Source: Planctomycetota bacterium | GTDB lineage: Bacteria > Planctomycetota > MHYJ01 > JACQXL01 > JACQZI01 | NCBI GenBank assembly: GCA_016207825.1 | Contig: JACQZI010000011.1 | Span: 1-64,000 of the forward strand | Length of the DNA stretch: 64,000 nt | Direction of reading: 5' to 3' | In this document: piece by piece, positions 59,375 through 60,359 of the stretch | Position numbering within the stretch: position 1 is the first letter of the stretch | Layout of the letters: every line of letters starts with the position of its first letter | Notes under the pieces: model-generated | Database searches by the model: none | What the model was told of the DNA's origin: nothing | Seen by the model: only the letters and a program-made list of their open reading frames with translations | Position numbers and translations under genes: made by a program

Positions 59375-60298
59375 TTATTTCTGCTCTTTCTTCTTCTTTT
59401 TTTCCTCTTCCTGTTTTTTCTTTTCTTGTATTTTTCGGTAGTCATCCAAGGCTTTCTTCATGGCAGTCTTCAGGGCTTTTGTATCCTTGGCTCCCGTAAT
59501 CCTTAGCAGGGGGCTCTTTTCCAACTCTGTTTCTTCCGGGTCTACGATAAATATTGCTGGGGCAGAGGAAACGCCCCATTTTTGCATACGCTCAAAGGCT
59601 TCTTCATCTTCAGCTTGTTTTTTCTTTTCTTCTTCACTAAGCTCCTTTGCCTCATCAGGCTTCTTGGGCTTTTCCACTGCTTTCAACTTGACAAATACGA
59701 ATTTCTCGTTGGTCTTAAGGAGCAGGCGGTCTTCTAAGGCTTTCAGCGTTTTTTCCGAACTCTTTTGCCCATCAACAAAGGCGATGAAAAGGAGTTTCTT
59801 CCCCGCGTTAGCATGCTCCACCCCCTTTTCCACGGAATCCAGCCAGCTAATTTCCTTAGAGGCATACAACGCCAGCGCTCTTTTGATTATCTCCAGCGCT
59901 TTCCCCGGCGCGGTTTCGTTTTGCATACGGTAAAGGAAAGAATCGCGGGTGATTTCGTTCTCATCCGGGTCAACGACAACTATTCCACCTTTTTTGGTGT
60001 ATTCATCCATTTTATATTTTTCGGCTTCCTTGGGAGAGGCGTTAACCATATGGAATTCATGGGACATTTCTATAAACTTTTCGTCGGCAAGCACACGGCT
60101 TGCTTCTTCCTGCTGGACTGCTCAGGCATCACAGGTGGAAAATATCAGGACAGGCTTGCCGTCGGATTGGGCATTTTTAACGGCATCGTCATATTTCTTT
60201 TCCCAGCTAATTTTGGGTTTTCCGGGCTTATTTTGCGCCTGCGCCACACCAACCAGCAGGCAGATAACGAGCAATATGAGAAACATCTTTTTCCACAT
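59375..60298 (-). CDS. Candidate selenoprotein: exported double-thioredoxin-fold protein with CxxU
   Basis: Reading through one in-frame UGA (60122-60124), this frame encodes 307 residues. It has a signal peptide (about 1-21, ending near AQA), a first thioredoxin-like domain with FSTCDAU, where U is the UGA, and a second thioredoxin-like domain without cysteines (about 140-280, AFVDGQKSSEK ... SSAPAIFIVDPEE). The position of UGA is the second cysteine of a CxxC site. Coding pattern continues without change after it (AVQQEEASRVLADEKFIEMSHEF). A hairpin lies 18 nt downstream (60103-60087). The second ATG (60298), 7 nt from an AAGGAGG site, is chosen over that at 60304. TGA is a normal stop elsewhere. 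Confidence 0.72.
60087..60103 (-). promoter_or_regulatory. Candidate bacterial SECIS hairpin
   Basis: On the minus strand, GCAAGC-CGTGT-GCTTGC forms a perfect 6-bp stem with a 5-nt loop. It begins 18 nt after the UGA, the apical loop starts 24 nt after it, and the second loop base is G, all within the range described for bacterial SECIS elements. Confidence 0.6.
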
Positions 60299-60331
60299 AG
60301 CCATTCCTCCTTAATGCAGTTCGTGGTTGGT

Positions 60332-60359
60332 ATTATACCTCAATTTTATTTAATGTCAA
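60332..60359 (-). promoter_or_regulatory. Promoter of the candidate selenoprotein gene
   Basis: Read on the minus strand: TTGACA (60359-60354), 16-bp spacer, TATAAT (60337-60332). The leader to the ATG at 60298 is about 27 nt and contains AAGGAGG. Confidence 0.8.

Follow-up and report, generated by a model that had tools for sequence, protein, structure and literature searches.

How is a gene to be read when its thioredoxin-like frame is interrupted, within the presumptive active site, by a single stop codon? In the window analyzed here, the first 64,000 nucleotides of a planctomycete contig, two same-frame pieces on the minus strand are joined by one TGA, the only one in the frame, in the context FSTCDA-U-AVQQEEASR (Table 1). 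The preliminary description of the locus had proposed a candidate selenoprotein, and this proposal is supported, as each of the checks suggested there that could be run came out in its favor; the promoter and ribosome-binding site that it placed ahead of the first piece are likewise present. By eye, the read-through product, hereafter the Sec59 protein, has a putative signal peptide, with a basic n-region, a hydrophobic core and AQA ahead of QN, and putative signal peptides stand out in homologues as well. As judged from sequence, the gene very probably encodes a selenoprotein in which UGA59 specifies selenocysteine: the in-frame UGA, the equivalence of Sec and Cys, the decoding machinery, the downstream hairpin and the fold are all well supported by computation, and from these we infer actual Sec insertion into the protein.

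Table 1. Features of the Sec59 locus, all on the minus strand, with positions in the 64-kb window
Feature	Positions	Strand	Basis or remark
Selenoprotein gene	59375..60298	-	307 residues with Sec59; ATG at 60298, stop TAA at 59377-59375; read-through translation and homologues that share the architecture and the in-frame TGA
Sigma-70-like promoter, TTGACA-16 nt-TATAAT	60332..60359	-	Read from sequence, putative function; both boxes perfect (TTGACA 60359-60354, TATAAT 60337-60332)
Shine-Dalgarno, AAGGAGG	60306..60312	-	Sequence; 7 nt upstream of ATG
Putative signal peptide, N-terminal, ~residues 1-21 (MWKKMFLILLVICLLVGVAQA)	60236..60298	-	Read by eye from sequence
First thioredoxin domain, catalytic, ~residues 30-145	59864..60211	-	PF13899 Thioredoxin_7; AF2 model
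Cys56, 3 residues ahead of Sec	60131..60133	-	Probable resolving Cys
UGA, Sec59, N-terminal (nucleophilic) Cys column	60122..60124	-	Alignments and structure model
bSECIS hairpin, GCAAGC-CGUGU-GCUUGC	60087..60103	-	Family-level stem test; sole covariance-model match in window
Second thioredoxin-fold domain, ~residues 148-275	59474..59857	-	AF2 model; no Cys; proline kept (SSAPAIF); weak PF13098 match
Lys/Glu-rich C-terminal helix, residues 276-307	59378..59473	-	Sequence; model helix 273-306

A search of 99 relatives recovered homologues spread over a total of 18 genomes. Many of these homologues contain a single in-frame TGA, and among them are two paralogues from the same genome that are 65% and 45% identical to the Sec59 protein and carry TGA in the same column. 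Over the distinct sites read from the loci in hand this column holds 57 TGA, 16 Cys and 11 other residues, proportions that are not frequencies, as the presence of a TGA was part of the basis on which loci were selected; a less biased sample is provided by the relative G014, where all 27 TGA-bearing profile matches have the codon in the Sec59 column. The concentration of TGA in one column, at the 57 homologous sites and at 27 out of 27 in G014, disfavors chance coincidence. A similarly less biased set, the 20 sites matched in 11 genomes lacking selA, comprises 18 Cys, one Ser, one Asp and no TGA. The comparison proposed in the preliminary description, namely which residue homologues have at the aligned position, therefore returns Sec or Cys at most sites, and exchange of the two at one column is the pattern by which selenoproteins are recognized. 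A decaying pseudogene, or a sequencing or assembly error in what is normally a Cys protein, might be suspected from a single nonsense codon in an otherwise open frame of a draft genome, but recurrence of the TGA at one column in two diverged paralogues and in dozens of genes elsewhere, with frames otherwise intact and with 23 of the 24 phylum-scan matches at E < 1e-30 carrying at least one TGA, leads us to reject this reading as having next to no likelihood.

The selA, selB, selC and selD genes, whose presence the preliminary description had proposed to verify, are all found in the genome (assembly G000; 2.89 Mb, 97.6% complete, 42 contigs): SelA scores 545.9 bits, SelD 364 bits and SelB above its cut-off, and a tRNA-Sec (70.3 bits, anticodon UCA) lies about 90 nt from selB. 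SelD itself has an in-frame TGA (CVGUAGK; L048, G000:C36:1904-2830, minus strand) which is the known selenoprotein form of this protein. Among named SelA sequences, the closest, 86% identical, is that of Candidatus Brocadiia bacterium DeMMO3_52, which makes the host a planctomycete related to that lineage; we take DeMMO to be the Deep Mine Microbial Observatory. For the Sec59 protein, a search of genome contigs found no close named homologue. TGA also serves as an ordinary stop: of 35 long open frames in the window, 7 end with it, and it terminates ordinary genes such as a PilM-like and a methionyl-tRNA formyltransferase-like one. Genome-wide reassignment of UGA to a standard amino acid (Trp, Gly or Cys), which the reading of UGA inside a gene might suggest, is consequently rejected as vanishingly improbable, given these normal stops, the dedicated tRNA-Sec and SelB, and read-through seen only in the active-site Cys column. 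When the window was scanned for further TGA-joined genes, only ordinary neighboring genes emerged besides the Sec59 gene.

The hairpin described earlier is present, beginning 18 nt past the UGA, and its register is conserved in Sec and not in Cys homologues. In bacterial SECIS elements the apical loop lies roughly 16-37 nt past the UGA; here the loop starts 24 nt past it and has a G within its first two bases, in keeping with a bSECIS on both counts. Taken alone, the hairpin of the Sec59 gene shows nothing beyond chance in RNA folding (z = -0.30) and is not significant against synonymous shuffles (P = 0.21; for the paralogue L033, P = 0.066). The evidence for it comes from the family, where we compared the longest uninterrupted stem with loop center 23-29 nt after the UGA with 500 synonymous recodings. 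Stems of at least 6 bp occur at 58 of 79 Sec sites, whereas 14.8 would be expected and no shuffle set among the 500 exceeds 25, with the caveat that relatedness among the sites keeps them from being independent trials; in a fresh set of 22 Sec sites from G014 there are 14 such stems against 4.9 expected. Cys homologues, by contrast, match the null (2 of 16 vs. 2.0 and 2 of 19 vs. 1.6), so that the hairpin tracks the UGA rather than membership of the protein family. Fixed-register covariation, counted in a MAFFT alignment (A3), is only modest because loop size varies and shifts the register between subfamilies, and it is for this reason that the variable-loop synonymous-shuffle test was used instead. 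An A-U stem pair of the Sec59 gene is C-G in L033, owing to two synonymous third-position substitutions (GCA/CTT to GCC/CTG), and in comparison with the paralogue L027, codons for the same residue are identical in 6 of 7 cases within the hairpin and 83 of 182 outside it. A held-out covariance model, trained on 36 sites from other genomes, gives one match up to E = 10 in the window, at 60112-60074 on the minus strand (E = 0.3), with a score of 15.9 bits to which sequence similarity contributes part. At E ≤ 10 the same model detects neither the site of SelD nor that of L027, and it is thus a family model rather than a general bSECIS one.

The position of the hairpin also bears on whether the locus could hold two genes, a short exported peptide followed by a 239-residue protein initiated at GTG 60094. 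As stated in the preliminary description, this GTG is the sole start codon listed for the separate second open reading frame; it is found in both paralogues too and has an AGGA about 15 nt upstream. It lies, however, inside the hairpin loop, initiation there would cut the thioredoxin fold within its first active-site helix, and in homologues the frame runs through, with Cys or Sec at the UGA position. On these grounds we reject the two-gene reading, to which we assign only a very small probability, and retain that of a single selenoprotein gene.

Where in the active site would the selenocysteine then sit? The preliminary description placed the UGA at the second cysteine of a CxxC motif, and the literal string is indeed CxxU, but both homology and the structure model put Sec at the first. 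Canonical double-domain members in the phylum read WUGPC or UPPC, and it is this U, the N-terminal nucleophile, that Sec59 matches in the alignment. The AlphaFold model, built from 12 sequences, agrees with the double-thioredoxin architecture recognized at the outset (mean pLDDT 90.4) and orders the active site as a strand at 50-55, Cys56-Asp-Ala-Sec59 and a helix at 60-71, with Sec where the first Cys normally lies. The first domain passes the gathering cut-off of Thioredoxin_7 (PF13899; 38 bits vs. 27, residues 32-94). Based on alignment and model, Sec59 thus replaces the N-terminal nucleophilic Cys of the canonical WCxxC, with the Cys at -3 as an added partner. The clade from its own genome (motifs CDAU, CDCU and CGAU; local support 0.998) has this Cys at -3, lacks the downstream one and features Gly or Cys-Gly in the column where others have the cis-proline. 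While the Sec59 protein shares Sec in the N-terminal Cys column with UxxC thioredoxin and thioredoxin-like selenoproteins, it departs from the canonical selenothioredoxins among them by Gln62 at +3, the Cys at -3, Gly in the cis-proline column, predicted export and its two-domain build. The Cys at -3 recurs in both paralogues and in the distantly related L019, whose CxxUxxC motif indicates that the two partner positions can coexist in one protein. In another rearrangement of the motif, the homologues L010, L012 and L030 have adjacent Cys and Sec (GCUGG, GCUGD) within a lengthened active-site loop.

In light of these results we propose that SelB with Sec-tRNA would read UGA59 as selenocysteine under the direction of the downstream hairpin, giving an exported two-domain thioredoxin-fold oxidoreductase. 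After export, Sec59, just ahead of the first active-site helix, would attack a disulfide or peroxide substrate, and Cys56 would most likely resolve the intermediate to a selenenylsulfide, as the usual downstream Cys is Gln. Reduction would come from the membrane, with electrons probably delivered by a CcdA/DsbD-type membrane protein, two DsbD_TM/CcdA-type genes being present in the genome. The second domain, devoid of Cys and with its proline kept, points to a binding or spacing role and would probably position partners, like the b domains of PDI. The genes next to the selenoprotein gene give no functional clue to the substrate, and no common partners are seen across paralogue and homologue gene neighborhoods.

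Within this scheme of thiol-disulfide or peroxide reduction, we lean toward disulfide exchange as the main activity, although a disulfide reductase activity of the standard kind cannot be taken for granted, because the first domain has Gly for its relatives' cis-proline. The same CxxU and Gly substitution, together with the missing downstream Cys in the own-genome clade, could instead indicate a selenoprotein whose main activity is peroxidase-like or metal- or selenium-binding, and known CxxU families do include AhpD-like and SelW-like proteins (PMC13188914). We regard this as possible but rather unlikely: fold and sequence are nearest to Thioredoxin_7-type disulfide oxidoreductases (DsbH 2ju5, TXNDC12, AGR2), and the Sec59 protein matches no peroxiredoxin family.

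These oxidoreductases, DsbH, ERp18 (TXNDC12) and AGR2, are also the nearest solved structures by profile for the first domain, with profile and fold matches including 2ju5, 2k8v, 1sen and AGR2, but they are single-domain matches without Sec. The top Foldseek matches, the two-domain protein disulfide oxidoreductases of Pyrococcus (1j08/1a8l) and PDI, share tandem thioredoxin folds; whole-chain TM-scores of ~0.24-0.33 nevertheless indicate a different domain arrangement, and the Cys-free second domain sets the Sec59 protein further apart. No NCBIfam family matches it above cut-off. The Trx7/PDZ (seleno)protein family NF041199 (CxxU) aligns through its Thioredoxin_7 start, including the CxxU region, with residues 31-73, but scores 20.2 bits against a cut-off of 300, and the Sec59 protein has a second thioredoxin fold in place of any PDZ match. 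Trx7/PDZ is listed as a CxxU selenoprotein (PMC13188914, PMC9312934), the 2026 inventory of 119 families also holds several UxxC thioredoxin families (PMC13188914), and a CxxU version of Trx-like 1 has been noted in ocean metagenomes (PMC2398784). The exported tandem Trx7 protein is absent from those 119 families (PMC13188914), in line with the earlier remark that the architecture was not one recognized among standard selenoprotein families; at the domain level, however, the motif (Trx7 CxxU) is known. Selenoproteins of other Planctomycetes were described in 2016 (PMC4807772), and our literature search found no paper linking selenoproteins with Brocadiia or describing an exported double-thioredoxin CxxU architecture. 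The Sec59 protein belongs to a group of such selenoproteins that is little described and strongly expanded in a planctomycete lineage of the deep subsurface. A 2026 groundwater survey by Deng et al. in Cell Rep, cited in PMC13188914, may list some of these genes.

The extent of this expansion is seen across the class, where 18 of 23 genomes have profile matches, with 39 matches in G014 and from 19 to 28 in each of several further genomes. The Sec59 gene is probably one offshoot of a large radiation in which exported thioredoxin-like proteins of this planctomycete class have extensively exchanged their nucleophilic Cys for Sec, and selenoproteomes of the G014 type could come near or exceed the 46 genes of the largest bacterial one that we found published (PMC12013277). 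Brocadiia-related Planctomycetota may represent a new extreme of selenium use. Furthermore, since conventional gene calling terminates or divides these genes at the UGA, many exported redox enzymes are likely to be misannotated in these genomes. Around a constant fold, one Sec appears in repeatedly rewired motifs (UxxC, CxxU, CxxUxxC, CU and, possibly, a two-Sec form), a series that lends itself naturally to asking how a selenol becomes resolved and what leads the exported proteins of these bacteria to favor selenium.

Several individual loci are of note in their own right. The 27 thioredoxin-like genes with an active-site TGA in G014, an assembly 88% complete (loci L173, L174, L176, L182 and L198-L219), divide into 19 with a clear UxxC and 8 without a plain one, the latter including L218, which has extra TGAs and is doubtful. 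The CGAU paralogue L033 (1498-2775; G000:C10, from 189469) is fused at its C terminus to a YbhB/YbcL (Raf kinase inhibitor-like) domain (TIGR00481, 86 bits), yielding a Trx-Trx-YbhB selenoprotein fusion. At G017:C235:5221-6820 (minus strand) two Sec double-thioredoxin genes adjoin, which suggests local duplication. One double-thioredoxin gene on that contig, L011 (G017:C235:5221-5985, minus strand), has a pair of in-frame TGAs with a spacing of five codons (STUSTSSUAKT) and may encode a two-Sec protein.
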